From the NCBI GenBank assembly GCA_001797335.1, contig MGPE01000008.1, positions 62,001 through 126,000 of the forward strand: a stretch of DNA of 64,000 nucleotides, in the 5' to 3' direction. The DNA comes from Deltaproteobacteria bacterium GWA2_38_16 (GTDB taxonomy: Bacteria > Bdellovibrionota > JACOXK01 > 2-02-FULL-40-11). A program made the position numbers and the translations under genes. The notes under the pieces are model-generated. The model made no database searches. It was given only the letters and a program-made list of their open reading frames with translations, and was not told the origin of the DNA. Shown here piece by piece: positions 3,144-46,935 of the stretch. The number at the start of each line of letters is the position of its first letter. Position 1 is the stretch's first letter.

Positions 3144-3209
3144 GTCATCCTGAGCGAAGCGAAGGATCCCATAAAAGAGATTCTTCGACTCTTTGAGTCT
3201 CAGAATGAC
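3144..3209. repeat. Long GTCATCC...AATGAC element
   Basis: A 66-bp imperfect palindrome opens with GTCATCCTGAGCGAAGCGAA and closes with CTCAGAATGAC, the near-complement of its start. The same bipartite form occurs at 27483-27538, and half-elements occur at 34545 and 35673. It sits between the rhomboid gene and the small gene at 3255. RNA from it would fold into a long hairpin. Confidence 0.75.
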
Positions 3210-5184: not shown

Positions 5185-6227
5185 ATAAATTGAATGACGG
5201 AAGGAGTGCCTTCATAAACTTCGCCAATGATCTGAGCTTCCTTAAGATTGGCAGTGTGAAGTTTATTGAGTAGAGAGGGAGCTTCTTCTTTGGGGAGAGA
5301 GATGAGAAGTCCCCCTGAGGTTTGGGGATCAAAAAGAATGGCTTCAAATTCTTCTGCACATTTTTTTTGAAATTCAATCATCCCTTTTACATATTCACGA
5401 TTGGTTTTATTGGCGCCAGTTAAATATCCTTTCTTGGCAAATGATAAAGCCTCTGAATATAGAGGTAAGCGATCGCTGTAAAATCGAAGGGAAACGTGAC
5501 TGGCATCGGCCAATTGGTAACTATGGCCAGTTAATCCAAATCCGGTAATATCAGTACAGGCATGAATGGTAAAATTTGCCATGGCTTCAGCAGCACTTTT
5601 ATTTAAAAGTGCCATCCAGGTGCACACTTTTTCAATAGTCTCTGAAGAGGCTTTTCGTTTTTTAATGGCGGTAGTGATAATGCCTGTCCCCAGAGGTTTT
5701 GTAAGAATGAGTTGATCTCCCACTTTGGCGCCTTTATTGGTATAAATTTTTTGAGGATGAATGATCCCTGTAATAGACATCCCATATTTTAATTGGTCGT
5801 CTTGAACAGAATGACCACCGAGAATGACAGTATTGGCTTCGTGAGCTTTGTCGTGTCCTCCTTGTAAAATTTTTTGTAGAGGTTCCAAAGGGAAGTCTGT
5901 CGGAAAAGCACAAATATTTAATGCGGTTAAAGGTGTTCCTCCCATAGCATAAATATCTGAAAGAGCATTGGCAGCGGCAATTTGGCCAAAGACATAGGGA
6001 TCGTCCACAATGGGAGTAAAAAAATCAACGGTTTGAACCAGGGCGAGATCTTGAGAGATTTGATACACCCCCGCATCATCTGAGGTTTCGGTGCCAACGA
6101 GGACGTTGGCGTTTCTACTCAAGGTCAGAGAACGGGTTAATTGCCGCAACACCGTTGGGCTTAGTTTTGCAGCTCAACCCGCACATTTTACTTTTTGTGT
6201 GAGCTGCCAAATGTCTTTTTTGGTCAT
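5181..6227 (-). CDS. selD: Selenide, water dikinase SelD, itself a selenoprotein (UGA at codon 18)
   Basis: SelD makes selenophosphate from selenide and ATP, the selenium donor for selenocysteine and selenouridine. Reading from the ATG at 6227 gives 348 codons with one in-frame TGA at 6176-6174. The context is VKCAGUAAKLSP, exactly where SelD enzymes carry the catalytic Cys or Sec shortly before the essential Lys. A SECIS-like hairpin lies 13 bases downstream of the TGA. Without read-through only a 323-aa fragment lacking the active site would remain. The rest matches the family (TSDDAGVYQ, TVDFFTPIVDDPY, ALSDIYAMGG, ITGFGLTGH, DPQTSGGLL). The start overlaps the nadA stop as ATGA, which supports the longer reading and indicates an operon. 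Sec insertion is inferred from sequence. Confidence 0.93.
6143..6160 (-). promoter_or_regulatory. SECIS-like hairpin of selD
   Basis: Minus-strand GCCCAACGGTGTTGCGGC folds as GCC/GGC and CAAC/GTTG with one bulged C and a GGU loop. The loop G lies about 21 bases after the UGA, inside the 16-37 base range known for bacterial SECIS apical loops. The GGU loop matches the type recognised by SelB. Confidence 0.7.
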
Positions 6228-24073: not shown

Positions 24074-24562
24074 ATGATGAAAAAGTGTTATTTTCCTATC
24101 TTCATGGGGCTTCTCATGATGGCCATAGGTTTTAGTTTTCAAGCCTGCTCTAAAAAACAAGTGAAAACAGAAGAAGGCGGAGCAGGAAAAATGAAAAAAG
24201 AAGGAATCGTTGAAATTGGCTACTCAGGGGCGATGCAAACTATTTATTTTGAATTTGATAAATATACATTATCTGATGAAGCCAGAGAAATTCTTAAAGA
24301 AAATGCACAATGGTTAAAAAGTAAAAAATCCATTAAAGTTCAAGTGGAAGGCCATTGTGATAATCGGGGATCTGAAGAATATAATCTGGCGTTAGGACAG
24401 AAAAGAGCTGAATCTGTTAGAAAATATTTATTGGATTTAGGAGTGGCGGCTTCTCGATTAACGACGCTTAGTTATGGAGAAGAAAAGCCTCTGGATAAAA
24501 TAGACGCAGAAGAAGCTTGGTCAAAAAATAGAAGAGCTGAATTTATTATTACAGATACATGA
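24074..24562 (+). CDS. pal: Peptidoglycan-associated lipoprotein Pal
   Basis: Pal is an outer-membrane lipoprotein that binds peptidoglycan and works with Tol-TolB during envelope constriction. The 162-aa protein has a lipobox ending FQAC (Cys near residue 25) and an OmpA-like domain. IYFEFDKYTLSDEA, EGHCDNRGSEEYNLALGQKRAE and LSYGEEKPLD carry the peptidoglycan-binding residues. A TTGACA box at 24027-24032 may belong to its promoter. It overlaps the DUF4398 gene by four bases and is followed by a CpoB-like gene, so this is the 3' part of a tol-pal-like operon without tolQRAB. Confidence 0.95.
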   Translation: MMKKCYFPIFMGLLMMAIGFSFQACSKKQVKTEEGGAGKMKKEGIVEIGYSGAMQTIYFEFDKYTLSDEAREILKENAQWLKSKKSIKVQVEGHCDNRGSEEYNLALGQKRAESVRKYLLDLGVAASRLTTLSYGEEKPLDKIDAEEAWSKNRRAEFIITDT

Positions 24563-24876
24563 TGAGTATACTTAAAAGAGGGTGTTTCATTAGGTTTATT
24601 TTTTTGGGATTTATTTTTTTGGTGTCCAGTTGTGCTTACTATATCCCGGATCAAGAAATCATGTTAGCAGAAGTAGCTGTGGAAGCGGCTAGGGATGCCA
24701 AAGCGGATGTATATTCTCCCAGTCTTTTTAGTAAAGCAGAAGATTACCTAAAGGCAGCTAAAAAAGCTAGACGTGATCGGGAATTTGAAGATGCAGCAAA
24801 ATTTTCACTTCTTGCAAAACAGTATGCAGAAAAAGCAGAAAATGAATCCGTCGTAAAATATGAACAAAACAAATAG
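24559..24876 (+). CDS. DUF4398 lipoprotein
   Basis: The 105-aa product has an N-terminal lipoprotein signal (FLVSSC lipobox). A helical domain follows with the DUF4398 pattern: Ala-rich helix EVAVEAARDAKADVYSP, then LFSKAEDYLKAAKKARR and a final helix AAKFSLLAKQYAEKAE. Proteins of this family occur next to OmpA/Pal-type lipoproteins, as here. The start overlaps the pal stop and the gene ends just before cpoB, so it is part of the same transcript. The function is uncharacterised; a structural partner of Pal at the envelope is plausible. Confidence 0.78.
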   Translation: MMSILKRGCFIRFIFLGFIFLVSSCAYYIPDQEIMLAEVAVEAARDAKADVYSPSLFSKAEDYLKAAKKARRDREFEDAAKFSLLAKQYAEKAENESVVKYEQNK

Positions 24877-24892
24877 CAGAGGAGATATGCCC

Positions 24893-25717
24893 ATGAAATT
24901 AATGTGGTGTATAATATTTAGTTGTTTAGTATTGGCCTCTTGTGCTTCTAACCCTCGGACCAAAAGAGTAGAGGCGGTTCAAAAGCTTCAAGAGGAAGTA
25001 GAAAAATTAAAACAAACTAAAGCAGATAAAGCAGATTCTAATGTTCAGTTGGATGATTTTAAAACAGAAATTCAAGTTTTAAGTGGAAAGATTGAAGAAA
25101 GCCAACACACATTAAAAATCCTTCAAAAAAATATTGAAAAAAATAATGAGCGTTTAGATCGAATAATTTCAGATTATGATAAAAAAATAATGTCTTTAGA
25201 AGAAGCAAATAAAAAACAAGATGAGAAAGTGACTGCATTAGAAAAAAATCAGGATGAAAAGCTGGATGCTTTAGAAAAGAAAATAGAAGAAGAGCGGCTT
25301 AAAAAAGCTGAAAAGGCTGAAAAAGCTGAAAAAGCTCAAACATCTGATGTAAAAGCAGATTTTTCAAATGGGATGAAGCGATTTAAAAATAAAGAGTATG
25401 CGAGTAGCATTACACTTTTTTCTCGGTATATCCAAAATTTTCCTGCTGGAAAATCAATAAAAGATGCAAGGTATTATTTGGCGGATGCATATTATGCCAA
25501 GAAAGAATATCAGGATGCCATTTTAAAATTTGAAGAATTTAAAGAGAAATATCCAAAAGATTCCCATGTTCCTGAGGCGTTGTATAAGCAGGGGATGTCC
25601 TTTGTAGAGCTTGGGAAAAAGTCCGATGCCAAACCTTTCTTAACGGAAGTGATCTCTAACTTTCCAGACTCTTCCTTCGCCAAAAAAGCAAAAGGTGAAT
25701 TAGAAAAGATAAAGTAG
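24893..25717 (+). CDS. cpoB: CpoB/YbgF-like lipoprotein with coiled coil and TPRs
   Basis: The 274-aa protein starts MKLMWCIIFSCLVLASC, a lipobox, whereas E. coli CpoB is soluble. A long coiled coil (about residues 25-145, rich in Lys and Glu) is followed by three TPR units in the last 120 residues (ARYYLADAYYAKKEYQDAI, PEALYKQGMSFVELGKKSDA). CpoB coordinates Tol-Pal with peptidoglycan synthesis. The ATG at 24893 sits eight bases after GGAG; an in-frame ATG at 24887 is too close. It follows pal and the DUF4398 gene, and the selenoprotein gene starts 15 bases after it. Confidence 0.85.
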   Translation: MKLMWCIIFSCLVLASCASNPRTKRVEAVQKLQEEVEKLKQTKADKADSNVQLDDFKTEIQVLSGKIEESQHTLKILQKNIEKNNERLDRIISDYDKKIMSLEEANKKQDEKVTALEKNQDEKLDALEKKIEEERLKKAEKAEKAEKAQTSDVKADFSNGMKRFKNKEYASSITLFSRYIQNFPAGKSIKDARYYLADAYYAKKEYQDAILKFEEFKEKYPKDSHVPEALYKQGMSFVELGKKSDAKPFLTEVISNFPDSSFAKKAKGELEKIK

Positions 25718-25732
25718 TAAGATAAGGAAATT

Positions 25733-27478
25733 ATGAAGCCATATCTTTGGATACTGGGTGTGTTGTGCGTAGTGGGTGTGGTGCAAGGGTGTTCATCTAA
25801 AAAAGGGGGAGGAACAGTTAACATTGTTTATACCTCTAGTGTTTTAGGTGAAATTGAGCCCTGTGGCTGAAAACTCCATCAACTTGGCGGTCTGGCCAGG
25901 AAAAAAGCGTTGGTGGAAAAACTTCAGTCTGGAAAAACTCCTACTCTCATTTTAGATAGTGGAGATTTATTGTTTAAATCTTCGATGGCACCCGATTATT
26001 TACGAGCGCAGTGGAAAGACCAAGCTGAATTTTTGGTAGATCAATTTAATCTCATTGGGTGCGATGCCATTGGAATTGGAGATAATGATTTTGCGTTGGG
26101 AGTTGATTTTTTACAAGAACTTCAGAAAAAAGCAAAATTTCCTTTTTTAAGTGCCAATATCATTGATCATAAAAGTGGAAAAACACTTTTTACTCCGTAT
26201 ATTATTAAAACGGTTTTAGGAGTTAAGGTGGGTATTTTTTCTGTAATAGATGCTTCTTTAAAATTACCGGAATCTGTTCATAGTCAAGATGCCATCGTGA
26301 TGGCTCAAGAAGTGATAAAAGAACTTTCGCCGAAGGTAGACTTCATGATTGCCTTAACGCATCAAGGAGTGGAGAAGGATATTCTTCTTGCTCAAAAAGT
26401 AAAAGGCATTGATTTTATTTTGGGAGGTCATGATGGAGCCTATTTAGCTCAGCCAAAACAGGTGGGAAATACCCTTATTTTTGAAGCCGGGGATCAAGGG
26501 AAATATGTAGGGGTTTTAAAAGCATCTCTTAAAAAAGGGGTTCATACGTATGCTAGCCCTGCCGATATTCAGGGGAGTGAAGGAAAAGTAATCCAAATTG
26601 ACGACCAACTGAAACAGCTTCGAGAGATGAAAAAAGGAGATTTGTATCAATCAGATATTGGATTTAAGAGTAGTACGGATCGTCAGGAACAAGAACTCCT
26701 GAGACAAAAATGGGAATTAGAACAAGAAATAGAGCTTTCTAAAACGAAGGGAAATCAGTTTACGCATCAATTGATTGCCTTAGATGAACAAATGGGAAAT
26801 GGAGATAATCGCATTTTTCAAAATGTTCAGCAGTTTAAGATTCATAAAATAGAGTTAGATCAAAAAATTCCGATGGACACAAAAATGGGAGCGCTTACTA
26901 AAAAGGGGAATACCTTAGAATATGCAACGTATCAAAAGTGTAAAGAGTGTCACAAAACACAACAAGAAGTATGGGAAAAATCAAAACATGCCACTGCCAT
27001 GATTCCTCTTTATATTCGAAACCAACATAAAAACCCGGAATGTTTGATCTGTCATAGCGTTGGACTTCAAAAGCCAGGTGGGTTTTCGGGTTTAGATAAA
27101 TCCATGGAAGTTTTTTTAGAGAAAGTGATCGATAAAAAATATAAAGGATCCATGATAGAGCTTCGAGAACATCCAGACGTTGATCAAAAGTTGAGAGCTC
27201 AATATCTTAAAGCCGTGAAAAAAGAAAATTGGAAAAAAGATTTTATGGGAGTTCAATGCGAAAATTGTCATGGAGCCAGAGGGTTAAAAAATGCCCAAGG
27301 GGCATTTATTCCCCATTTTACCGAGGATCAATTTCCTAAAAAAGTCGTTGCCCAAAATTGTCTTGAATGCCATACTCGCCAGCAATCCCCTCATTTTGAT
27401 TTTGCAAAGGATAAGCGCATTAAAGGTGAAGCCGGCGGAGCGATGGCTCCCTTTCACTGTGCGGAAGGGAAATTTTGA
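25733..27478 (+). CDS. UshA-like selenoprotein fused to a tetraheme cytochrome domain (UGA at codon 46)
   Basis: The gene reads through one in-frame TGA (25868-25870) from the ATG at 25733 to give 581 codons. Upstream of the TGA lies a lipoprotein signal (VVQGC, Cys20) and the segment GEIEPCGU. Downstream the same frame continues KLHQLGGLARK into a metallophosphoesterase-like domain (LDSGDLLF, GIGDNDFALG, ALTHQG, GGHDG). Cysteine versions of the family read PCGCK at this place, so the UGA is best read as selenocysteine in a Cys-Gly-Sec motif. Residues about 240-310 are coiled, and the C-terminal third has four heme motifs: CKECH, CLICH, CENCH and CLECH. A SECIS-like hairpin follows the UGA. 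The canonical first metal ligand Asp is replaced, so hydrolase activity is uncertain; a redox role is likely. It follows cpoB by 15 bases. Confidence 0.9.
25883..25900 (+). promoter_or_regulatory. SECIS-like hairpin of the UshA-like selenoprotein
   Basis: CTTGGCGGTCTGGCCAGG forms six base pairs (one G-T) around a GGUCUG loop. The loop begins 19 bases after the UGA. GGUCU matches the loop of the well-studied E. coli fdhF SECIS element, the part contacted by SelB. Confidence 0.8.
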
Positions 27479-27482
27479 TGGA

Positions 27483-27538
27483 GTCATCCTGAACGAAGTG
27501 AAGGATCTCATGGGATTCTTCGCTGTGCTCAGAATGAC
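27483..27538. repeat. Long GTCATCC...AATGAC element
   Basis: A 56-bp imperfect palindrome begins GTCATCCTGAACGAAGTGAA and ends GCTCAGAATGAC. It starts four bases after the selenoprotein stop and ends nine bases before the tsaD start, so it occupies the whole gap between the genes. Confidence 0.8.
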
Positions 27539-27547
27539 AAAATAAAT

Positions 27548-28561
27548 ATGTACGTACTAGGAATAGAGACATCCTGTGATGAAACCAGTGCCGCTGTTAT
27601 CAAAGATGGCACTCAACTTCTTTCCAATATCGTAGCCTCTCAAGATGAACTTCATGAACCTTATGGAGGAGTGGTTCCAGAGCTGGCTTCCAGGTGTCAC
27701 ATTGAAAAAATTGAATCTATTGTGGATTTGTCCTTAGAAAAAGCAAGCATTTCTTTGGAAGATATCAATGGCATTGCGGTAACTTCTGGCCCAGGACTGG
27801 TTGGATCTTTGGTGGTCGGCCTTTCCTATGCCAAGGCATTGTCTTATGCAAAAAAAATTCCTTTTTATGGAGTAAATCATTTAGAAGCGCATCTTCATGC
27901 CATTTTTTTAGAGAAAAAAATAGAATATCCTTTTATTGGACTTTTGGTTTCGGGAGGACATACTTCTTTATATGATATTCGAGGCGTTGGAAATTATACC
28001 TTATTAGGATCTACAGTGGATGATGCGTGTGGAGAAGCCTTTGATAAAGTAGCTAAAATTTTGGGTTTGGGATATCCCGGTGGACGGAAAATAGATGAAA
28101 TAGCAAAAAAAGGAAACGCCAAAGCTATTTTATTTCCCAGACCCCGTTTAAAAGAAGACGATTTAAATTTTAGTTTTAGTGGATTAAAAACCGCAGTTCT
28201 TAATTATTGCCAGAAATTGGGGAAGTCTCTTTCAGAAGTCGAAAGAAATGATATTGCCGCTTCTTTTCAAGAAACAGTAGTTGAAACGCTTCTTCAGAAA
28301 TCTTTAAAAGCCTTAGAAAAAATGCAGTATCCAAAACTTGTGATTGCAGGAGGTGTTGCTGCCAATTCAAGACTCAGAGCGGCGTTTCAACACATGTCCA
28401 AAGAAAAAAATATTGAACTTTTTATCCCTTCCTTAAAACTCTGTACCGATAATGCCGCCATGGTGGGAGCTTTGGGATATCATTATCTTGTGGCTGGTCA
28501 AAAAGCGCCTTTTTCTTTAAATGCTTATGCAACAACATCATCATCACAAGCATCATTCTAA
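27548..28561 (+). CDS. tsaD: tRNA N6-adenosine threonylcarbamoyltransferase TsaD
   Basis: TsaD transfers threonylcarbamoyl to A37 of ANN-decoding tRNAs, working with TsaB, TsaE and TsaC. The 337-aa ASKHA-fold protein has LGIETSCDETSAA at the start, the metal-binding HLEAHLHA, LVSGGHTSLY, FDKVAKILGLGYPGG and GGVAANSRLR. Its length and motifs are normal. The repeat element fills the space just upstream and leaves no clear ribosome site. Its last 41 bases overlap the DUF2062 gene in another frame. tsaB and tsaE are not in the window. Confidence 0.97.
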   Translation: MYVLGIETSCDETSAAVIKDGTQLLSNIVASQDELHEPYGGVVPELASRCHIEKIESIVDLSLEKASISLEDINGIAVTSGPGLVGSLVVGLSYAKALSYAKKIPFYGVNHLEAHLHAIFLEKKIEYPFIGLLVSGGHTSLYDIRGVGNYTLLGSTVDDACGEAFDKVAKILGLGYPGGRKIDEIAKKGNAKAILFPRPRLKEDDLNFSFSGLKTAVLNYCQKLGKSLSEVERNDIAASFQETVVETLLQKSLKALEKMQYPKLVIAGGVAANSRLRAAFQHMSKEKNIELFIPSLKLCTDNAAMVGALGYHYLVAGQKAPFSLNAYATTSSSQASF

Positions 28562-29054
28562 ACATCATGCATGGGGAAGATTTCGACGGCGTTTAAAATA
28601 TTTTTATTATCATTTTATTCGAGATCCCTCTCCAGAACGTGTATTAAGGGGCATTTCTGTGGGTGTATTTTTTGGATGTACGCCGTTTTTAGGGATCCAT
28701 ATGCTTTTTGCTTTTGTAACGGCAGCCGTCATTAATGGGAATAAAATACTGGCGGTGATTTCTACCTGGATTATGAATCCTTTGACTCTGGTTCCTCTTT
28801 TTATCTTGGATTATAGGGTGGGGCGATTTTTATTTTATCCATCCTTGTCATTAACAGTAGAGTTTTCTGAAAAAAATTTAACATCTATTCGATCCATTAT
28901 TGGACTGGGATGGGATGTGTTTGGGGCCTGTTCTTTGGGAGGAGTTATTGTTGGCTTGATATTGGCTTTAATATTTTATGTCATGATGAGACCTCTCTAT
29001 CATTATTTTCGAAGACTTCATCTTTTAGAGCGATTTAAAAAACATGGACGTTAA
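28521..29054 (+). CDS. DUF2062 membrane protein with His-rich N-terminus
   Basis: The 177-aa protein opens with a His run (HHHHKHHSKHH). A basic amphipathic stretch RRRLKYFYYHFIRDPSPERVLRG follows (given here only to mark residues about 21-43), then three hydrophobic segments with the family motif GVFFGCTPFLGIH and STWIMNPLTLVPLF. DUF2062 proteins are uncharacterised membrane proteins, often beside glycosyltransferase or lipid genes. The start lies within the 3' end of tsaD and the stop overlaps rsmA by 11 bases, giving a tightly packed tsaD-DUF2062-rsmA group. The His-rich tail could bind metal, but it may simply reflect the overlap with tsaD. Confidence 0.8.
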   Translation: MLMQQHHHHKHHSKHHAWGRFRRRLKYFYYHFIRDPSPERVLRGISVGVFFGCTPFLGIHMLFAFVTAAVINGNKILAVISTWIMNPLTLVPLFILDYRVGRFLFYPSLSLTVEFSEKNLTSIRSIIGLGWDVFGACSLGGVIVGLILALIFYVMMRPLYHYFRRLHLLERFKKHGR

Positions 29055-29892
29055 AAAAGTTCTTACTCATTATCATCTGCGCGCCAGCCAATATCTAAGC
29101 CAAAACTTTTTACATTCAGAAGCACTGGCCGATCGAATTGTAGAGGCCTCTCACATTGAAAAAGAGGATATTGTTTTAGAAGTGGGGGCAGGGCTGGGGA
29201 TTTTAACTAAGGCTTTGGCCAAAAAAGCTAAAACCGTTATGACGTTTGAAAAAGATAAAAAATTATGGGGACCTCTTCCAGAAATTTTAAAAGAATACAA
29301 GAATATTGAATTTATTTTCTCTGATTTTTTAGCGTATCCCTTGGGAGATCTTTCGAATAAAAAAGTAAAAGTTGTCGCTAATTTACCTTTTTCTATTTCT
29401 ACAGAAATTATGTTTCATTTTTTTAAATATCGAAAATGCATAGAAACGATGACCCTCATGTTTCAAAAAGAAGTAGCCAAACGAATTGTTGCCGTTCCAA
29501 ACACCAAAGATTATGGCGTACTATCGATTTTATCTCAGCTATATTCGACCCCCAAAATTTTATTTTCTGTACCCCCCTCATCCTTTTATCCTGTGCCAGA
29601 AGTAGCGGCAGCCGTTATCCACTTTAAAATGAATGAGGTGCTTCTTATCCCCCAGCAGCAAGAGCATTTCTTTATTCGGGTGGTTAAGACCGCTTTTATG
29701 AAGCGGCGAAAGATGCTTAGTAATTCTTTACATAAACTTATTCCTCAAGAAATCCTTCAAACGGTATCGGCGAAAACAGGTATTAGTTTAAAGCGTCGAA
29801 TGGAAACATTGTCTTTGGAAGAATTAAAAAAATTTGTAGGACTTCTTTATTCCTGCTTAGGAGAAGCAGGAGCAAATCGCTTAATAATTTGA
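29044..29892 (+). CDS. rsmA: 16S rRNA (adenine1518/1519-N6)-dimethyltransferase RsmA
   Basis: RsmA (KsgA) dimethylates two adjacent adenosines in helix 45 of 16S rRNA during late small-subunit assembly. The 282-aa protein has SQNFLHSEALADRIV, SAM motif I LEVGAGLGILTKAL, acidic motif FEKDKKL, the catalytic NLPF motif and SVPPSSFYPVPEV in the target-binding part. Length is normal. It overlaps DUF2062 by 11 bases upstream and converges with the 29847-31424 gene with a 46-base overlap of the 3' ends. No feature is missing. Confidence 0.96.
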   Translation: MDVKKVLTHYHLRASQYLSQNFLHSEALADRIVEASHIEKEDIVLEVGAGLGILTKALAKKAKTVMTFEKDKKLWGPLPEILKEYKNIEFIFSDFLAYPLGDLSNKKVKVVANLPFSISTEIMFHFFKYRKCIETMTLMFQKEVAKRIVAVPNTKDYGVLSILSQLYSTPKILFSVPPSSFYPVPEVAAAVIHFKMNEVLLIPQQQEHFFIRVVKTAFMKRRKMLSNSLHKLIPQEILQTVSAKTGISLKRRMETLSLEELKKFVGLLYSCLGEAGANRLII

Positions 29893-32916: not shown

Positions 32917-33714
32917 ATGATGAAACGACTTAGCATTCTTGATCTTCAAAGAAAGAAACAAGAAAAAGAAAAAATTGTGGCCCTTACGGCCTATGATGCC
33001 ACATTTGCGGCATTGGTGGATGAGGCGTCAGATATTGTTCTGGTCGGTGATTCATTGGGTATGGTGATTCAAGGGAAAGAAAACACCCTGTCTGTTTCTT
33101 TGGAAGACATGATGTATCATACTCGTGCGGTAGACCAAAAATTAAAAAAAGCACATTTAGTAACCGACATGCCTTTTTTGAGCTATCAAGTATCGATGGA
33201 AAAAGCGATAGAGAGTGCGGGACGTTTGTTACAAGCCGGTGCGCAAAGTGTAAAGTTAGAAGGTGGAGAAGAGGTATGTGATCTTGTCCATCGATTGACT
33301 CGATTGGGAATGCCGGTAATGGGGCATCTGGGGCTTACTCCTCAATCCATTCATCAGTTGGGGGGATATCGAGTACAAGGAAAAGAAGAGAGAAAAAAAG
33401 ATGAGCTTTTAAAAGATGCAAAACGGTTGGAAGAAGCCGGCGCTTATGCGGTTGTTTTAGAATCTATCCCAGAAGATTTGGCGAACGATATTACAAAAAA
33501 CCTTCGTATTCCGACGATTGGGATTGGAGCAGGGCGTGATTGTGATGGTCAGATCTTAGTGATTTATGATCTTTTAGGAATGGATGTGAGTTTTCATCCC
33601 AAGTTTGTTAAACGCTATGCCCATCTTTCCCAAACCATCGAAGAGGCTCTCAAAAATTATGCCCAGGAAGTAAAATCGGGACTATTTCCAGACGATTCCC
33701 ATGTTTTTCACTAA
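32917..33714 (+). CDS. panB: 3-methyl-2-oxobutanoate hydroxymethyltransferase
   Basis: PanB makes ketopantoate from 2-oxoisovalerate and 5,10-methylene-THF, the first step of pantothenate synthesis. The 265-aa TIM-barrel enzyme has LTAYDATFAALVDEA, the metal-site VLVGDSLGMVIQG, VKLEGGEE, MGHLGLTPQS and IGIGAGRDCDGQILV. Length is normal. It begins two bases after the FadL-like gene and overlaps panC by 14 bases, so panB and panC are translationally coupled. The one-carbon donor is also the product of the gcv operon upstream in the window. Confidence 0.97.
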   Translation: MMKRLSILDLQRKKQEKEKIVALTAYDATFAALVDEASDIVLVGDSLGMVIQGKENTLSVSLEDMMYHTRAVDQKLKKAHLVTDMPFLSYQVSMEKAIESAGRLLQAGAQSVKLEGGEEVCDLVHRLTRLGMPVMGHLGLTPQSIHQLGGYRVQGKEERKKDELLKDAKRLEEAGAYAVVLESIPEDLANDITKNLRIPTIGIGAGRDCDGQILVIYDLLGMDVSFHPKFVKRYAHLSQTIEEALKNYAQEVKSGLFPDDSHVFH

Positions 33715-34576
33715 ATATTTTTCTATTGCAGAGATGAAAGCGTGGTCTTTGGACCAACGACAAAAGGGAAAAACCATTGGCTTTGTTCCAACGATGGGCG
33801 CTTTACATGAAGGGCATTTGTCCCTTGTCAGAATAGCTCGTCAACACTCAGATACAGTTGTGGTGAGTATCTTTGTCAATCCCCTGCAGTTTGCCCCTCA
33901 TGAAGATTTAGATCGTTATCCTAAAACGTTAGAAAAAGATGTTGAGCTTTTAAAAAAAGAAGGGGTGGCTGTGGTATTTATTCCCAAGGCGTCTGAAATG
34001 TATTCTCCTCATTTTCAAACCGTCGTAGAAGTGACAGAACTCTCTAAACATTTGTGTGGAAACAGTAGACCGGGGCATTTTAGAGGAGTGGCTACGGTTG
34101 TGTTAAAACTATTTCAAATTGTTAATCCACATATTGCTATTTTTGGGGATAAAGATTTTCAACAACGGCTGGTGATTGCGCGGTTAGTGAAAGATTTAGG
34201 ATTAGAGATTAAAATTCTAGCGGGACCCATTGTGAGAGAAGCCGATGGATTGGCTATGAGCTCACGTAATCAATATCTATCGTTGGATGAACGCAAACGC
34301 GCATGTGTTTTGTATGAAGCATTAACGAAAGCTTTAACTATGTTTCAGAGTGGAGAGAGAAATAGCGCCAGAATCATCATGAAAGTTTCAGAAATGATTG
34401 ACAAGGTAAGTCCAACCCACGTAGACTACATGAAAATCTGCGATGCTGAAACTCTGGAAGAGGTTTGGAGTATCCAGAAAAAAGCCATACTAGCAGTGGC
34501 GGTATATTTTAATAAAACACGGCTTATTGATAATGTTATTCTAAGTCATCCTGAACGAAGTGAAGGATCTGTATGA
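33701..34576 (+). CDS. panC: Pantothenate synthetase with repeat-derived C-terminus
   Basis: PanC joins pantoate and beta-alanine using ATP. The 291-aa protein has the HxGH nucleotide motif in PTMGALHEGHLSLV, VVSIFVNPLQF, FGDKDFQQ and the KMSKS-like AMSSRNQYL. The last residues, LSHPERSEGSV, are a translation of the dispersed element at 34545-34570, so the native C-terminus has been extended or replaced by the repeat. The catalytic core ends earlier (VAVYFNKTRLIDN) and should be intact. The stop overlaps the DUF502 start as ATGA, just outside the repeat. Confidence 0.95.
   Translation: MFFTKYFSIAEMKAWSLDQRQKGKTIGFVPTMGALHEGHLSLVRIARQHSDTVVVSIFVNPLQFAPHEDLDRYPKTLEKDVELLKKEGVAVVFIPKASEMYSPHFQTVVEVTELSKHLCGNSRPGHFRGVATVVLKLFQIVNPHIAIFGDKDFQQRLVIARLVKDLGLEIKILAGPIVREADGLAMSSRNQYLSLDERKRACVLYEALTKALTMFQSGERNSARIIMKVSEMIDKVSPTHVDYMKICDAETLEEVWSIQKKAILAVAVYFNKTRLIDNVILSHPERSEGSV
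34545..34570. repeat. GTCATCC...GGATCT element forming the 3' end of panC
   Basis: The 26-bp half-element begins GTCATCCTGAACGAAGTGAA and ends GGATCT. It is in frame with panC and encodes SHPERSEGS at its C-terminus. It matches the first half of the element at 27483-27538. Confidence 0.9.
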
Positions 34577-39700: not shown

Positions 39701-40206
39701 GAGAGGAAAAAGCCTTAAAGTGTTGGGGATTATCTCATTCGTCGACACCAGAGGAGGTGGTGCAAGGTCTTGAGAAAGATGTTGTGGCTGTCTCCACAGG
39801 AAGCGGTGATGGATGTGCCATTGTGGGAGAGGAAAAAGCCTTAAAATGTTGGAATACATCTCATCAACTAACGACAATATTTGAAAGCGGTGTCTCAAGT
39901 GTGGTGGTTGGAGGAAATGGACATACCTGTGCAATTCAAAACGGCGGTTTAAAGTGTTGGGGATTAAATGATCATGGACAGGTTGGGAATGGGGAAGTGA
40001 ATGATAGCAATGAAGTTATTCCAATGGTGTCTGTACCAGGCTTAGAAAGCGGCGTTTCAGCAGTAGCGTTGGGTAGTAATCATACCTGTGTCATTCAGAA
40101 TGATAAAATAAAATGCTGGGGAATGAACCATCGAGGCCAAGTTGGACAAGGTTTTATCGACGTTCATGTCCTTTCTCCCGGTATTGTAGGAACGCAAAAC
40201 AAATAA
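36733..40206 (+). CDS. Giant lipoprotein paralogue: seven Cys-paired modules plus seven RCC1 repeats
   Basis: The 1157-aa protein shares the plan of the 12144-15959 product. It has a lipobox (ALTYC) followed by Ser, a Gly-rich run and a Ser/Glu linker. About seven modules follow, each starting near an AGxC motif (IIAGKC, FSGSC, VAGTC, IKAGDC) with a second Cys about 45 residues on. The RCC1 domain at the end has seven repeats such as HTCAIIGSGLKCWGENNFGQLG; blades 4 and 5 are shortened (KALKCWG, KALKCWN), so the propeller is less regular. Surface display is likely, ligand unknown. The 3' end overlaps ccsA by 53 bases on the other strand. Confidence 0.83.
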   Translation: MNKSRILLLMSILIGAFALTYCSGGGGGGGDGGSSSGGEESTSSSESISNYFRVESSVSHIIAGKCSGPYTVKIVDPKGKTITVSEDTYMDFMSGSSAFFADANCTKIFDPDTDIQALFIPTGKESAEFYLKNPLAGTMELEVSGSGLDTKNPLLLTIEPTTAEKLSLDGSPYDVEADRCQGPYSVYTRDQYENDTSVSQDTVVTLEGGSQATFYEDDGCNKKTSSITVLAGNRSQKFYLKSSATEALIIEASTPDFQGKTLSLYASGASAAVGQEPPQVFLLGSSDLFSGSCASYVMMFDDKEGNSFIKDNYTASFNLDKAKGGKFYLDECGTGISNFPIIKGQKSQKFYFKSTNPGEALIEISIPELEAFIASFPLTIKPRDPSKLKLICPEDMTAGFCTPCHVQTVDHSENMAPVREDTSIKFMAINGQTLFYSDMGCSSQVSQATLAKNQDTLPIFVKETVAGTIKLSAYDEDDVFGSSDRSINVKAAEVHNMILQGPPDFLVAGTCSSEYTLKIVDDFGNLTSDTQIRLSNREGQISFYEDRGCQNALSSFDLSKNEKSFYVKGEKAGSFFIFGESSRISSRALSSVTIEPGDISNIFISGDSTIKAGDCHKYQVFAKDSYGNGTGLEGNSVLVLSGQEQGMFYVEKECAGQSISQISMGAPRGSVSFYYKGRGMGDVKLKATLVGQQREIRKEKEYPVTVIVGKPSRLVLTFDTQTFGAGQCVKGSAALQDLYENLASFDAPQDIFFQKSRHLKLFSDSSCTQSLTSRSGFFVSQLSSKLDFYMKNSATETDMLYAESHMLRSAAYVITTQALPMAMSSAAHHTCAIIGSGLKCWGENNFGQLGDGTKTNRLKPVFVSELTMDVSAISVGSGHACAIQHGKLKCWGYGEEGQLGGNSSGKGVIAPFPIPVSNLGSDVVSVSAGYNHTCAIVGNTRGLECWGKNQVGQLGDGTSQDRSFPNPVNGLGRDVWAVSAGGSATCAIVGEEKALKCWGLSHSSTPEEVVQGLEKDVVAVSTGSGDGCAIVGEEKALKCWNTSHQLTTIFESGVSSVVVGGNGHTCAIQNGGLKCWGLNDHGQVGNGEVNDSNEVIPMVSVPGLESGVSAVALGSNHTCVIQNDKIKCWGMNHRGQVGQGFIDVHVLSPGIVGTQNK

Positions 40207-41818
40207 GCCCAATTTCTAATGTTACATAGCTTAAGACATAGTTTAAGCCACCTGAACCAAAACCGTAGCTATGTAGTCCAACCCCCAGCACAAAATTTAC
40301 TCCGTACCAGGCCATGAGTACTCCTTGGAAAGCTAAAATAGAAGCCGCCACAATACCAAAGTCTTTAAGCCACCCAGCATATTTTCCATGAATGACTGCC
40401 AGATACAAAAGAAGGGCAATCAAAGCCCAGACTTCTTTAGGATCCCATCCCCAAAAACGTCCCCAAGAATAATCTGCCCATACGCCACCTAAAATGGTTC
40501 CAGCCGCTAAAAGCAAAACTCCAATTTGAATACTTCGGTAAATAAATTGGACGAGCTGTTTTATCTCTTTTTCATGGTTTTTGTATTTCATAAATTTAAA
40601 TATAGCCCAGTTTCCCAGTCCCATGGCCAGAGCAAAGGCAGCGTAGCTTAATGTAATGATAAGTACATGGGTTGTTAGCCAAAAATTACTTCGAAGGACA
40701 GGGGCCAAAGGACGAATGGTAGAATCTAAGACCATGGGAAGGTTATCTGCTAAAATAAGTCCAATGGCAGAAACGGTACTGGCTGCAGTAACAATGATGA
40801 GATTTTTATAAGAATAAAAAAGGATAAATGAAAAGAAAACAGCACCCAAACTTACCCACACAACCGATTCATACATGGTCCCCACAGGAGCGCGTCCTGT
40901 GATAACACATCTTAAATAAAATCCAAAAACATGAAGTAAAAAAGCCAAAACACTGGTAGCGATTCCAATGGTATCTATATATTTCTTTTTGAAAATAAAA
41001 AAAGTAATAAAAAAGATTAAAGACACTACATAGAGAATCCATGCTTTTCGAAAAGGATGAAAGTGGTTATAAAAAACTTCTGAAGAGAGAGTTCCAACAT
41101 AGGGGTAACCACTCTCTTTTGGAAGTTCAGAAAGAAGCTGCCTAAATTTTAAAGAAGTCAGAGAAAATGTTTTTGGATCTTTTTGAAGATAGGACTCAGA
41201 CATTCCTTGAAATGTCATTTTTAATTCTGAAATTTTAACCTGGGAAGCAGGATCTGCGTATATTTTATCAATATCAGAGGATGCAAGGGCAGAAAGGGGG
41301 ATCCAGGGAGCGGTTTCGCCCTGCTCATAGGGAGGAATAAGCGTTACAAATTCTCCTGAAAGTGTCCGGTCTAAAATAAAAAGTTGAGACGAAAGGCGAT
41401 CGATAGATTGTTCAAAAGGAGACAATTTTTCTTCAGCTTGATTTTTAAGATGTACGGCTTGGGAAAATTGAGAAAATTGAGGAAGGGCTTGAATTTGAAG
41501 AGCGGTAAAATGTCTTTGTTCTTTGGGTAAGCCAAAGGTTTGCTTAACCTCTAAAGAAGTAATTTCAATGAGAGGCGTTTGAACCCATTTTTCGGGAGAA
41601 TAAATCCAAGACCATACCATTTCTACAGCGTTCATCCCTTGAAAGGTTTGTTTCCCGGTGATGAGCTGAACGACTTCACGAGAAAATGTATCAAAAGGTT
41701 TAATGCGGCCACCATGTTGAATGGGAATGGTTTCAAGAGGTTTAAAGTTTAGTGTTTCTGCACTACTACTAATACTGACAAAAAGGATGAGAAGGGGAAG
41801 GGCATATTTAGAAAGCAT
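40154..41818 (-). CDS. ccsA: Cytochrome c biogenesis protein CcsA/ResC (System II)
   Basis: CcsA with ResB forms the System II heme-delivery and ligation complex for c-type cytochromes. The 554-aa protein has a signal-like N-terminus, a periplasmic region of about 220 residues and then eight or so transmembrane helices. The tryptophan-rich heme-binding WWD motif is WGRFWGWDPKEVWALI near residue 455, flanked by conserved His (HVLIITLSYAAF, HSYGFG). The large N-terminal extension occurs in related bacteria. It overlaps resB by 11 bases. Its placement with the cytochrome genes fits the 40 heme motifs in this window. Confidence 0.93.
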   Translation of the reverse strand: MLSKYALPLLILFVSISSSAETLNFKPLETIPIQHGGRIKPFDTFSREVVQLITGKQTFQGMNAVEMVWSWIYSPEKWVQTPLIEITSLEVKQTFGLPKEQRHFTALQIQALPQFSQFSQAVHLKNQAEEKLSPFEQSIDRLSSQLFILDRTLSGEFVTLIPPYEQGETAPWIPLSALASSDIDKIYADPASQVKISELKMTFQGMSESYLQKDPKTFSLTSLKFRQLLSELPKESGYPYVGTLSSEVFYNHFHPFRKAWILYVVSLIFFITFFIFKKKYIDTIGIATSVLAFLLHVFGFYLRCVITGRAPVGTMYESVVWVSLGAVFFSFILFYSYKNLIIVTAASTVSAIGLILADNLPMVLDSTIRPLAPVLRSNFWLTTHVLIITLSYAAFALAMGLGNWAIFKFMKYKNHEKEIKQLVQFIYRSIQIGVLLLAAGTILGGVWADYSWGRFWGWDPKEVWALIALLLYLAVIHGKYAGWLKDFGIVAASILAFQGVLMAWYGVNFVLGVGLHSYGFGSGGLNYVLSYVTLEIGLICFAFLQYREKGHERR

Positions 41819-43616
41819 GGGTTTCCTCAGGTTTAAGTTTTAAAGTTTCTTTTTTTTTAAGATATTCTTGGGCAGCTTCCATATAGATTTTTTTAAAGAA
41901 AAACATCCACAAAATTCCTAATACAATAAGAAGTGAGCCTGCATATTTTAACGAACGACCCGGGTCATACATAACAGAAAGCACACTCCCAATAGGGCGT
42001 CCCTCTTCATCATTTTGATAACTGGATTGATAAAATGTAAATTTTTTGTGTGTTAATGGTTCATTCATCGTAACTAAGTGATCTTGAACAATTCCTCCAG
42101 CGGCGGAATCTTTTAAAGTCACATGGCTTTTATACGTGGCTGGATTATTGGTTCCTGGATCTGTGCCCATTTCAAATTGTTTTAAGTGGAGCGAAAAATA
42201 TAAAGGTAGAATTTTTGGAAGATAAGAAATCGTATAATGTTCTCCCTCAAAAACCACATGCTTATTTTCATAAAATTCAAGCCACTCTTTGTGAGTAAGA
42301 GTACCATTTTTGAAAAAAGAGAGATGCAGTGCCGGCAAGGCTTTTGGATTATTGGGATCCTTTGGAATAAAAGGAGAAAAACTACTTTTTTTAGTGGCGT
42401 GAGGGAAAAATTGTTCAGCGGTGAACGTAAGGTCCATCCATCCCGTGTCATAGGATTTCCCAACCACTATTTCTCCAGACCGATTTTCCTTGGCAGAAGA
42501 AACCTTATAGTAGAGTTTTTGATTGGGAGTTACGGCTAAGTATAAAGTGTGTTGTTGCGAAGAATGAACATGAGAGTCATGGGCCATAAACTCGACCTTG
42601 GCATTATACACAGTTGTTTTTTGATGCATGGATGAAAAATTGGGAAAGTTAGTAAAGGAGATATATTTTTCTGAACCTTCAGGGCCTTCTAATACAAATT
42701 GAAGGGCAGGATTGGTGAGGGTTTCTGAGCGATTGACGAGTTTTCCATTTTGCACCTGGGCATCTGAAAAATATTGGAAATTTTTGAGTTTAAAAGCACT
42801 TCCATTTAGAGGGATTGTTTTTGATAGTTCTGAAGAAGAAATGGGGAGGGTCCAGTGTTGATTATGAATCGTAAGTTTTAATTCTCCTAAACTGTTTTTT
42901 TGAGAAGCTGTTTTTGTGTGCAAAAAAGAGTGAAGGGAAGAGGCATCTTTTAATTTTTTAAAAATAAGCGTAGCAGGACCTACTTGAAGTTCTTCATTTC
43001 CTGTTTCATTCATCAAGAGCCATTGATCAAAGGCTGCAAAGGGATTTTTAAGATGAAGTTTAATGCCTTCATAGTTCGATGTCTTATCTTCAACAATGCT
43101 TTCTTCTACTTTCGCATAGGGTAAAAAGGTGTCTACTCTAACCTCTGTTGTTGGATCTGGAGAAAACGTGGCTAAAGCACCTTTTTTAACATAAGGGCCT
43201 AGGTTTAAGATTTTGGTAAGAGAGATATTTTTTTGAGGGATTTCTAGAGTTAAGGTTTGTTCATCAGAAAGCATGTAATCTTTTTCTTCGTTGTTATAAA
43301 GGGGGAGATTACCTTCCACGCCAAACCAAAAAGAAATAAAAGAACCCACAATCATGACTAAAATACCTAAATGAGTAATGACAAATCCTACTTGATGTTT
43401 TTTCCAGGGGTATTTTTTAAGGGCTGCGAAAGTAACATTGATGGCAATGAGAATAAGTAAAAGGCCAAACCAAGCGGTTTTATAAATAGAGTATTGAACG
43501 GCTCGCGTGCCATAAGAAGACTCAAAAAAAGTAGCTACAATGAGAACAATGGCAAAAAGGCAAATCAGCACAATGCCCAGCTTTAAGGATCCTAAATATG
43601 AAGAAAGTTTTTTCAT
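41808..43616 (-). CDS. resB: Cytochrome c biogenesis protein ResB/Ccs1 (System II)
   Basis: ResB is the partner of CcsA that holds apocytochrome and channels heme. The 602-aa protein has transmembrane segments near residues 13-31, 44-64 and 76-102 (QVGFVITHLGILVMIVGSF). A large periplasmic domain (about residues 105-550) follows, and then a last transmembrane segment (YAGSLLIVLGILWMFFF). The His in VITHLG and the late conserved strand KFTFYQSSYQND are family features. It overlaps ccsA at its 3' end. It is preceded, 59 bases away, by the MtrB-like gene on the same strand, so maturation and client genes are probably expressed together. Confidence 0.9.
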   Translation of the reverse strand: MKKLSSYLGSLKLGIVLICLFAIVLIVATFFESSYGTRAVQYSIYKTAWFGLLLILIAINVTFAALKKYPWKKHQVGFVITHLGILVMIVGSFISFWFGVEGNLPLYNNEEKDYMLSDEQTLTLEIPQKNISLTKILNLGPYVKKGALATFSPDPTTEVRVDTFLPYAKVEESIVEDKTSNYEGIKLHLKNPFAAFDQWLLMNETGNEELQVGPATLIFKKLKDASSLHSFLHTKTASQKNSLGELKLTIHNQHWTLPISSSELSKTIPLNGSAFKLKNFQYFSDAQVQNGKLVNRSETLTNPALQFVLEGPEGSEKYISFTNFPNFSSMHQKTTVYNAKVEFMAHDSHVHSSQQHTLYLAVTPNQKLYYKVSSAKENRSGEIVVGKSYDTGWMDLTFTAEQFFPHATKKSSFSPFIPKDPNNPKALPALHLSFFKNGTLTHKEWLEFYENKHVVFEGEHYTISYLPKILPLYFSLHLKQFEMGTDPGTNNPATYKSHVTLKDSAAGGIVQDHLVTMNEPLTHKKFTFYQSSYQNDEEGRPIGSVLSVMYDPGRSLKYAGSLLIVLGILWMFFFKKIYMEAAQEYLKKKETLKLKPEETHAF

Positions 43617-43675
43617 GGGATTAAAACATGACCTTAATCAACTTCATCTCAAAAATCAAATCTTAAAAATTTGTA

Positions 43676-45700
43676 TCAGAAATTCTTAAGAGTCGCTTTG
43701 ACAGATGCCAGATGGTAGTCATAGTCATCTATATGGGCGCGGCTAGAGATGCGATAAAGGCCGGTTTCATAAGAAGGGGTAATTTCTAAGTTTTTGCGAA
43801 TTTTCCAACCAGCTTCCACATGAAGATTATCAAATTTATGATCTATGCCCACAGGAAGTCCTGTGCCCGAAAAGTCATCAAAATTATCATTGCTCCATGT
43901 TTTTTGATAATCGGCTTTTAAAGAAAGTTTATCTCCTACGTCATAGGTGAGTGAAGAGAGAAAAGTGTTAAATCCTCCTTTATTTTTAGGAAGGTTTACG
44001 GAACTGACATCTTGTGCAATGGTGTTTGTCTCTAGTTTTTGATATGCAAACGATTCTATCAGAGTTAAATAATCCCAGGGGATTAAGGTTAAAACTCCCA
44101 TATGTTTTTGGGTTCGACTATGCGATTTAACGGAGGCTGGTGCAGCTTCTTTTAGCATTCTAAACTGTGTGTCGCTCCATTGAAATCGATAATCCGTATA
44201 AAGCCAGGACAAAGGCCGAATAGAAATAGTGGTTTTAGTACCATAGGATCGGTTTCTCATATCATCCACAAATGCAGATTTATCACTGGTAGGGGTACCG
44301 GCAATTTCCCTCGTATCTTTATAGCTATCGATGTTGTTATCTGTAAACCCTTGAGCAGATAATTTCATCCAACGATAAGGGTAAGAATAAAATCCTCCTG
44401 TTACTAAAAATTTATACACTTTTAGTTTCGTGGTTCTATAAAAATCATCTGCAGCAGCAGTGTTTACTTGATCCTCTGTAAGCTTTAATATATTTTGTTC
44501 AAGCTCGGCCTTAAGATAAGGAGTAAAAGCGGTCCTGCCTTTATAGGTGAGGATTAATTGTTCTCCAAATCCAAATCCTTTATCTGAGGTGTCAATATTA
44601 TTGGTGTTATTAATAATGCCATCTGTGTCGGTATCCCTAGGATAGGTAGCATCCGAAGAACGAGATTTTAAATTCACCCTCCCTCGGGTGGTTAAGAAAA
44701 AGTTTTTCCCTAAGTCTGATAAAAGATTTATCCCCCAAATGTGTTGAGAGATTTTATTGTCTGCTTCAGCTCCATATCGATTGTGGCCGCTAACCTGAGC
44801 GCCGGTAGCTTCAGTAAAGACCCGTAGATCTTCGTTTTCTTCGGAGCTACCTTTTTCAAATCGATAGACCAAACTTCCAATAAAACGATCTTCTTTGAAA
44901 TGTTTTAATGTTTTTAGGGTTGCTGCATAATTGAAGCCATCTAATTTTGTGATCTGACGAACCATACTAGGTGTGGCAGAGTTTCTATTGTGCTCTTCAC
45001 GGACAGGAACTTCTCTTAAAATAGCTAAATCATTTTTAAATTCAATTTCATATCCTTTGATTTCTTTTGAAAGATTTAAACTAAATTCATGGAGATTTTC
45101 ACGGCGAAGATTGGTAAAACCAGGGACAAATTTGCGTGTATTGCCTGTGTAAGGCGCCGTTCTTGCAGCACCCCAATTAAGATTAGCAGACTTTCCTTGT
45201 TTATGATGCCATAGATATTCTAAATCCATATGAGCAAAATTAAAAATGGGGGCAGCGATAGTGGCAAAAAGTTTTCCATCAAAAAGAATGAGATCTCTAT
45301 CAATATTAAAAGAAGAGGGGGTAATAGCACCATGATGTCCCCCTGTATTATCATAATAACGATTAAATGCATTGATCCCCATTTTAAAATCAAAAAGGTC
45401 TCGATCATTTTTGTTAAAAATGTTTAAGATTCCTCGGTATTCATTATTTTCAATAAGGGCTTTTTCTACATCTAAGTCAAAATCTAGTGTAGATCCCAGG
45501 GGAGATTTTAAAAGAAGTTGGTCTAGCCCTCCAATAAAATTTCGTTTGGTATCGTTTAATTCTCGAAATTTTACTGTATCGTTATCCACAAAGTAGTATT
45601 TAAATACCGGCGAGATTAGGAATGTTTTTTCAGAGCCATATACGTGGATAATGGGAAGTAAAGAGATGAATAGAAATAAGGAGATAGTTTTTTTCATCAA
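43676..45700 (-). CDS. MtrB/PioB-like outer-membrane porin of a porin-cytochrome conduit
   Basis: The 674-aa product has a signal peptide (about residues 1-22), no transmembrane helix and a long series of beta-strands with alternating aromatic residues. Tyr/Trp/Phe-rich strands include LEYLWHHKQGKSANLNW, WLYTDYRFQWSD and LKADYQKTW, and it ends Leu-Lys-Asn-Phe. Length and context match the 26-strand barrels that sheathe MtrA-type cytochromes. It directly follows the multiheme lipoprotein gene with a four-base overlap, which is the defining pairing. N-terminal CxxC motifs of some MtrB proteins are absent. The family call rests on size, barrel features and neighbour. Confidence 0.78.
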   Translation of the reverse strand: MMKKTISLFLFISLLPIIHVYGSEKTFLISPVFKYYFVDNDTVKFRELNDTKRNFIGGLDQLLLKSPLGSTLDFDLDVEKALIENNEYRGILNIFNKNDRDLFDFKMGINAFNRYYDNTGGHHGAITPSSFNIDRDLILFDGKLFATIAAPIFNFAHMDLEYLWHHKQGKSANLNWGAARTAPYTGNTRKFVPGFTNLRRENLHEFSLNLSKEIKGYEIEFKNDLAILREVPVREEHNRNSATPSMVRQITKLDGFNYAATLKTLKHFKEDRFIGSLVYRFEKGSSEENEDLRVFTEATGAQVSGHNRYGAEADNKISQHIWGINLLSDLGKNFFLTTRGRVNLKSRSSDATYPRDTDTDGIINNTNNIDTSDKGFGFGEQLILTYKGRTAFTPYLKAELEQNILKLTEDQVNTAAADDFYRTTKLKVYKFLVTGGFYSYPYRWMKLSAQGFTDNNIDSYKDTREIAGTPTSDKSAFVDDMRNRSYGTKTTISIRPLSWLYTDYRFQWSDTQFRMLKEAAPASVKSHSRTQKHMGVLTLIPWDYLTLIESFAYQKLETNTIAQDVSSVNLPKNKGGFNTFLSSLTYDVGDKLSLKADYQKTWSNDNFDDFSGTGLPVGIDHKFDNLHVEAGWKIRKNLEITPSYETGLYRISSRAHIDDYDYHLASVKATLKNF

Positions 45701-46452
45701 TACCTCAAATGAGGATCAAAATTTGATCCATGGGGTTTGGTATGACATCCGGCACTCCAACAGGTCCCTTGAACAGAATAGCCTGAGTGTGCAGATCTTT
45801 TTCCAATGGTTGGATAATCTACTTGAGCATGGCACTTTATACACAAATTTTTATCGTTTTGAAGAAGCATTTTAGGATGAATTGATCCGTGAGGATTATG
45901 ACACACCGTGCATGAAGATGCCAGGGCCTCGTGTTCGTAGGATAAAGGGCCTTGTTTGCCTGCATGGCATTTAAAGCAGGTATCATTGGTTCCGCGTATG
46001 GAGACGGCGGACCAAGGTTGAACATCTGATCCATGCGGATCATGACAATCTGTACATTTTACTTTTCCTTCTAAAACCGGGTGGTGAGAGAGAAGTTTAA
46101 ACTCTGCTTTCTTTTCCAAATGGCATTGAAAACACGATTCGTTGTCTTTTTTAAGATTTAAAATTTTGGTTTTATCTCCACCGCCTTCCACGTGCAGACT
46201 TCCTGGGCCATGGCACATTTCGCAGGATGTCCCATGGACGCCTTCAACTCCGGACACTTCAATTCTAAAGTGATCGGCGAGTTTAAAATCTCTGACTTTT
46301 TTTTCGTGGCAGGTGGCGCACGTCTCTTTTCCCACATATTCAGCTCCTCGGCTTGCATTTCTAAAGTAGGGAGGATTGACCACAATTTCTTTCTTAGGCG
46401 TGCAAGAGAAGAGAAGAATAACTACTATTAAAAAGCTTATTTTTTGAATCAT
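45697..46452 (-). CDS. Multiheme c-type cytochrome, MtrA/DmsE/OmaB-like lipoprotein
   Basis: The 251-aa protein has a lipobox (LLFSC, Cys17) and seven CxxCH motifs: CATCH, CEMCH, CFQCH, CTDCH, CFKCH, CTVCH and CIKCH. An eighth site near the C-terminus is the rarer CX4CH form, CWSAGCH. HxxxxxxPHGS segments after several hemes (DCHDPHGSD, VCHNPHGSI) supply distal ligands and are typical of the DmsE/MtrA family. MtrA and DmsE have ten hemes and Geobacter OmaB has eight, so by heme number it is closer to OmaB. It should sit within the MtrB-like barrel encoded next to it and conduct electrons across the outer membrane. Confidence 0.88.
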   Translation of the reverse strand: MIQKISFLIVVILLFSCTPKKEIVVNPPYFRNASRGAEYVGKETCATCHEKKVRDFKLADHFRIEVSGVEGVHGTSCEMCHGPGSLHVEGGGDKTKILNLKKDNESCFQCHLEKKAEFKLLSHHPVLEGKVKCTDCHDPHGSDVQPWSAVSIRGTNDTCFKCHAGKQGPLSYEHEALASSCTVCHNPHGSIHPKMLLQNDKNLCIKCHAQVDYPTIGKRSAHSGYSVQGTCWSAGCHTKPHGSNFDPHLRY

Positions 46453-46614
46453 CGGGTTTATTCCTAAGAAAAATATTAAGTGATGTCAATGGAATTAGCA
46501 TTATTAAGTATCAAAAAGTTGATCTATGTCAAAATAGTTTCAGAAAAATGGGCGAATTCATTTGCAATTGTATTTTCACTTCAGGTAAAAATTAAGAACA
46601 GGGAGGAAAATTGT

Positions 46615-46935
46615 ATGAAAATAGTTACTCTACTCTTCGTGAGTGTATTTTTTGTTTTTTCTGGAGTGGTCTATGGGGCGGGAGCGGATTTGTATAAAGG
46701 TAAATGTGCCTCTTGTCATGGAAAAGCAGGGGAAGGATCTGCTGCTTTAGCTAAAATGCTCAAAGTCGATAATGCAAAACTGGCTTTAAATTCAGCCACT
46801 ACGCAAAAGCTTTCCAATGCAGAGCTTTTAAAGGTGACTTCTGATGGTCGAGGAAAAATGCCTGCATATAAAGGAAAACTGAAAGATGATGAATTAAAGC
46901 AATTGGTTGACTTTATCCGTACACTGAAAAAATAG
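46615..46935 (+). CDS. Small periplasmic monoheme cytochrome c
   Basis: The 106-aa precursor has a signal peptide (MKIVTLLFVSVFFVFSGVVY, then GAGAD) and a class I cytochrome fold. The heme motif is KCASCHGKAGEGS, the distal Met is in GRGKMPAYKGKL, and the final helix is ELKQLVDFIRTLKK. A strong AGGGAGG ribosome site is just upstream of this ATG; the longer frame to 46480 reads non-coding-like sequence. It is a soluble shuttle candidate between inner-membrane quinol oxidisers and the porin-cytochrome complex. The 3' end overlaps the CbcL-like gene by 42 bases, convergently. It is a paralogue of the 49004-49360 product. Confidence 0.92.
   Translation: MKIVTLLFVSVFFVFSGVVYGAGADLYKGKCASCHGKAGEGSAALAKMLKVDNAKLALNSATTQKLSNAELLKVTSDGRGKMPAYKGKLKDDELKQLVDFIRTLKK

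Follow-up and report, generated by a model that had tools for sequence, protein, structure and literature searches.

An in-frame UGA very probably encodes selenocysteine in a UshA-like protein with a predicted lipid anchor and a tetraheme domain

In the window, which here denotes the whole stretch of 64,000 nucleotides that was analyzed, a reading frame on the forward strand starts with ATG at 25733, ends with TGA at 27476-27478 and is open throughout apart from one internal TGA at 25868-25870. Such a locus raises the questions whether this UGA is read as selenocysteine (Sec) and what kind of protein the read-through product of 581 residues would then be. An earlier note, made from the sequence alone, had proposed a selenocysteine in a UshA-like protein fused to a tetraheme cytochrome domain. 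The coding character of both sides of the UGA, on which this proposal was built, is confirmed in the sequence: 45 residues with a lipobox-type signal precede the codon, and a metallophosphoesterase-like domain and four CxxCH motifs come after it, all of them as described in the note (Table 1). It had also been foreseen that ordinary gene calling would begin the gene with TTG at 25910, and the mechanical list of open reading frames does so, by which the export signal would be lost.

Table 1. Features of the selenoprotein locus and of selD in the window (positions counted from the first letter of the window).
Feature	Position	Strand	Basis
selD with its own in-frame UGA at 6174-6176 (KCAG-U-AAK)	5283..6206	-	profile match, sequence
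pal-like OmpA-domain lipoprotein	24074..24562	+	conserved neighbor
DUF4398 lipoprotein	24559..24876	+	conserved neighbor
CpoB/YbgF-like TPR protein	24860..25717	+	conserved neighbor
Predicted read-through CDS, UshA-like PCGU tetraheme selenoprotein, 581 aa	25733..27478	+	NF041198, 373 bits
Putative signal peptide and lipobox VQGC, lipid-attachment Cys20	25733..25792	+	sequence
Metallophosphoesterase-fold domain, degenerate active site	25817..26542	+	domain match, Foldseek to UshA-type nucleotidases, alignment
E-I-E-P-C-G-Sec motif, predicted Sec46 codon UGA at 25868-25870	25850..25870	+	19-row alignment
Candidate bSECIS hairpin CUUGGC-GGUCUG-GCCAGG	25883..25900	+	folding, bSECIS criteria, fdhF comparison
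Heme motif 1, CKECH, residue 403	26939..26953	+	sequence
Heme motif 2, CLICH, residue 437	27041..27055	+	sequence
Heme motif 3, CENCH, residue 509	27257..27271	+	sequence
Heme motif 4, CLECH, residue 543	27359..27373	+	sequence
tsaD, downstream	27548..28561	+	conserved neighbor
rsmA, downstream			named from its sequence

The machinery on which a selenocysteine depends was found in the genome, whose 19 contigs add up to about 2.0 Mb and for which a completeness of 100% is listed. A tRNA-Sec with the anticodon UCA (76.5 bits) is present together with SelA (532 bits), SelB (279 bits) and SelD (380 bits), so that selA, selB, selC and selD are all at hand for Sec decoding. The selD gene lies in the window and carries an in-frame UGA of its own, which is an independent sign of Sec use by this genome and makes it the second selenoprotein gene in the window.

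Homologues and tRNA-Sec were surveyed in 59 genomes. Across 19 aligned rows E40, P43, C44, G45 and C/U46 are invariant, and residue 46, where according to the note Cys should be looked for in homologues, is either Cys or encoded by UGA. All six members with UGA (G000, G001, G003, G004, G006 and G007) belong to genomes with a tRNA-Sec, and codon 46 is UGA in every member of the class that holds both gene and tRNA-Sec (n = 6); among the tetraheme relatives with a Cys codon (TGT/TGC) tRNA-Sec was absent in 12 of 12 tested. Since genomes are not independent draws, this match of codon and machinery is stated without a p-value. In G003, which is 83% complete, selA was not matched although tRNA-Sec is present. 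The gene of one relative (L053, G004:C145) lies in two frames at about 1091-1197, probably owing to an assembly error. For the gene in the window, frameshift or assembly error was considered and rejected, as no shift is needed and the same UGA recurs in five other assemblies.

A close relative of the same family and with the same gene order as the Sec members, G002, carries TGT for Cys and lacks selA as well as tRNA-Sec. On the protein tree it sits among the Sec rows (group of five 100/100, inner placement 82/63), for which reason Sec probably came first and gave way to Cys as the machinery was lost. The locus allows a clean comparison of Sec and Cys in a gene whose chromosomal site is fixed, with Sec where the decoding machinery was kept and Cys where selA and tRNA-Sec are missing.

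The hairpin of six pairs with a GGUCUG loop was confirmed where the note had placed it, beginning at the 13th base after the UGA, with stem arms at 25883-25888 and 25895-25900, the loop at 25889-25894 and one U.G among the six pairs. The published bSECIS model asks for a loop of 3-9 nt, a stem of 4-16 bp, a G in the first two loop positions, a distance of 16-37 nt from the UGA and an MFE of at most -7.5 (PMC13188914), and the hairpin lies within all of these bounds (6-nt loop, 6 bp, GG, 18 nt, -11.6 kcal/mol). Compared with fdhF of E. coli, G22-G23-U24-C25-U26 and U17 occupy identical positions, counted from the U of the UGA. All six stem pairs are formed in five of six UGA rows, the exception being G001 with two mismatched pairs, versus none of nine Cys rows. 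The hairpin exceeds what chance would give: when the same residues were recoded at random with synonymous codons, 1.7% of the recoded sequences formed all six pairs, 0.4% the four inner pairs together with GGUCU, and 0.5% folded locally as well. However, the peptide LGGLAR is itself conserved, so that conservation of the stem is partly confounded; two-sided compensatory changes or covariation were looked for in the hairpin and none were found, and taken as a whole the 48-mer does not fold with unusual stability (z = -1.0). The hairpin evidence is therefore supportive, but alone not decisive. Together with the machinery, the Cys homologues and the match of UGA with tRNA-Sec it strongly supports the selenocysteine that the note had claimed, and UGA46 very probably encodes Sec in what is predicted to be a secreted, lipid-anchored heme protein. 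Neither of the two observations that, according to the note, would have spoken against Sec (homologues with another residue at this position, or a genome devoid of selA, selB and tRNA-Sec) was made.

As to the kind of protein, it is a member of an already named and catalogued selenoprotein family, NF041198 'UshA-like (seleno)protein' (PCGU), for which the whole protein scores 373 bits against a curated cut-off of 275; all 19 aligned members match this family too. In 2008 the Global Ocean Sampling metagenomes had already yielded UshA-like selenoproteins with a CxU motif (PMC2398784), and these are listed in reviews of 2022 and 2026 (PMC9312934, PMC13188914), in agreement with the note, which had called them known. 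The UshA-like ancestry is also borne out by the AlphaFold model (mean pLDDT 80, with the loop 46-51 under 50), for which the best Foldseek matches were UshA-type nucleotidases (E 8e-20); among the 50 matches listed, no solved structure paired heme and UshA domains. A literature search for fusions of metallophosphoesterase and multiheme domains, or for SoxB/UshA/PCGC, found nothing. Nevertheless, the novelty that had been ascribed to the multiheme fusion did not hold. The C-terminal 195 residues alone match the NF041198 profile at 400-455 (6e-26), and a Cys member with four CxxCH motifs spans profile positions 1-518; the tetraheme C-terminus is hence part of the family model and common to Cys members, and no special fusion needs to be assumed. 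The phylum also contains shorter relatives that have the Cys motif and are devoid of heme motifs.

The heme region itself corresponds to PF13435, cytochrome c554 (46.9 bits, cut-off 20.8), and the features expected of a c-type cytochrome are found together, i.e. CxxCH motifs, an export signal and, in the genome, genes for the assembly of c-type cytochromes. A lipobox-like Cys is common to most relatives. Outside the CxxCH motifs the well-conserved His residues are 419 and 528, so that not all hemes need be bis-His ligated. Elsewhere in the window, a cluster on the reverse strand (40154-48951) includes genes for a CcsB-type protein of cytochrome maturation (40154-41818), for a multiheme cytochrome resembling DmsE/GSU2203 (45697-46452) and for a multiheme and formate-dehydrogenase-gamma-like protein (46894-48951); two proteins encoded between these gave no NCBIfam match. 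A short dispersed repeat, TCATCCTGARCGAAGYGAAGGATCY, is found on the forward strand at 3145, 27484, 34546 and 35674, one copy lying directly 3' of the selenoprotein stop codon and another at the end of the open reading frame 33701-34576.

The active site was examined in an alignment of PCG[U/C] members with canonical UshA paralogues, one of which (L057) stems from the same genome. Ligand positions are named after what we take to be their counterparts in UshA and in canonical paralogues of the same and related genomes; a check of the literature for the metal ligands of UshA yielded nothing. In the PCG[U/C] rows motif I reads IVYTSSVLG and the like instead of ILHTNDHHG, with loss of the Asp and His ligands, GDND replaces GNHD with loss of the catalytic His, and the Asp of the NHxxD motif is lost as well. 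D78 and H233 are retained in nearly all and H210 in most tetraheme rows, where the Asn of motif III and the second site is D or E, and D78, D117, H210 and H233 are kept or conservatively changed. One metal site is thus gone, while four possible ligands of the other remain, a combination that is less documented for the family. Judged by the motif-I Asp/His and the catalytic His, the protein does not qualify as a UshA-type 5'-nucleotidase, and their loss makes binuclear phosphatase activity very unlikely. The nucleotidase function is probably covered elsewhere, since the genome holds a canonical UshA paralogue with all metal-ligand motifs (G000:C13:64943-65716, L057 6875-8374). The idea that Sec replaces the first metal ligand was not upheld, as the lost Asp aligns with Ser36, and Sec46 stands 10 residues past it.

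The genomic surroundings provide a further lead. The block pal - DUF4398 - cpoB-like - ushA-PCG[U/C] - tsaD - rsmA (window 24074-29892; L050-L056, L073-L079) is kept in five families of the phylum, with Sec and Cys proteins alike, which is likewise less documented. The same order was found in those members of this class whose contigs span the block, in G010, which comes from a third family, and in genomes of two more families, f8 (G053, G034) and f9 (G014, G028, G054, G058), where the exceptions are one missing DUF4398 match and, in f9, extra genes ahead of tsaD; around the copies in G037 and L018 the block was not seen. Genes upstream of pal vary (ribosomal operon, dgt and others), so that the conserved part is the envelope block. 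The conserved position of the gene behind pal, DUF4398 and cpoB-like suggests that the protein acts in the periplasm or the cell envelope, though gene order is a lead on function and not proof, as an old order may outlast functional ties.

With a probability of roughly 0.7 we consider the protein to be a secreted, lipid-anchored redox enzyme of the cell envelope, which belongs to NF041198 and combines Cys-Gly-Sec with heme. By comparison with other genomes, SelB and tRNA-Sec would decode UGA46 as Sec on the hairpin just downstream; Cys44-Gly-Sec46 probably performs thiol/selenol chemistry on a substrate, one metal could still be bound through the four ligand positions that are retained, and the C-terminal c554-like tetraheme domain may carry electrons to or from Cys-Gly-Sec, at a location in the envelope presumably near the Pal and CpoB-like proteins. 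Sec recoding, family membership, loss of the motif-I ligands, the four heme motifs and the gene order are those parts for which comparison of sequences speaks. Of the note's final suggestion, a selenium-dependent redox enzyme rather than a nucleotidase, the second half stands with the loss of the nucleotidase center, and the redox role may reasonably be inferred.

Instead of performing thiol/selenol redox chemistry, Cys-Gly-Sec might bind an active-site metal, e.g. Cu, Ni or Zn, and its position closely following the lost motif-I ligands would fit, as would the CGC of most members, two Cys forming a usual metal-binding pair; we regard this as improbable, however, because CxU motifs are usually redox motifs. 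Against this objection, the authors of the 2008 study did not count the UshA-like family among those whose Cys-based redox motifs are conserved (PMC2398784). Slightly less probable still is a selenoprotein whose N-terminal domain has remained a hydrolase, with hemes of separate purpose, for instance one that releases sulfate from a thiol carrier as SoxB does, or a mononuclear phosphoesterase. SoxB is indeed the nearest curated enzyme family after NF041198, at 112 bits far under its cut-off of 550, and the retention of D78, H233 and mostly H210, with D or E at the motif-III Asn, also speaks in its favor; yet the motif-I Asp/His, the catalytic His after motif III and the NHxxD Asp are lost, an ordinary UshA is available in the same genome, and Sec within a hydrolase would be unusual. 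That UGA46 is a true stop, in a decayed or mis-assembled gene or between a short upstream peptide and a gene from TTG 25910, where the mechanical list starts it, can practically be dismissed, as exactly codon 46 is UGA in five other genomes and Cys in others, the protein sequence is conserved on either side, Sec machinery co-occurs with UGA, and the later start drops the export signal that a c-type cytochrome requires.

For an unexplained selenoprotein family the redox reading offers a testable role, that of a redox enzyme with several hemes, linked to the Pal/CpoB-like block, and not of a nucleotidase. A wider generalization is tentative and carries markedly less of our confidence: the family might represent an uncharacterized class of cell-envelope oxidoreductases, in which Cys-Gly-[Sec/Cys] replaced one metal site of a degenerate phosphoesterase fold, was wired to a tetraheme domain and, in this phylum, acts at the outer membrane jointly with Pal and a CpoB-like protein.

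Among known systems, the UshA-like CxU proteins of NF041198/COG0737 are closest, with the same PCG[U/C] and the same domain order including the tetraheme C-terminus; differences concern only details of length, i.e. a helical insert around residues 276-340 that several relatives lack. UshA-like family 2 (NF049981) shares the UshA-like domain (53 bits, residues 29-264), but the score is under the cut-off of 140, the model of 262 residues covers the N-terminal domain only, and the motif is CxxU. The likeness to the SoxB thiosulfohydrolase (TIGR04486) extends over residues 48-269, and SoxB is not known to possess a heme domain; the cytochrome c554 family PF13435 is represented here as the second domain within a larger protein. 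The 5'-nucleotidases UshA of E. coli and CD73, finally, are alike in the fold of the N-terminal domain, but the motif-I ligands and the catalytic His are missing in the selenoprotein, and where those enzymes possess a nucleotide-binding C-terminal domain, a heme domain follows instead.
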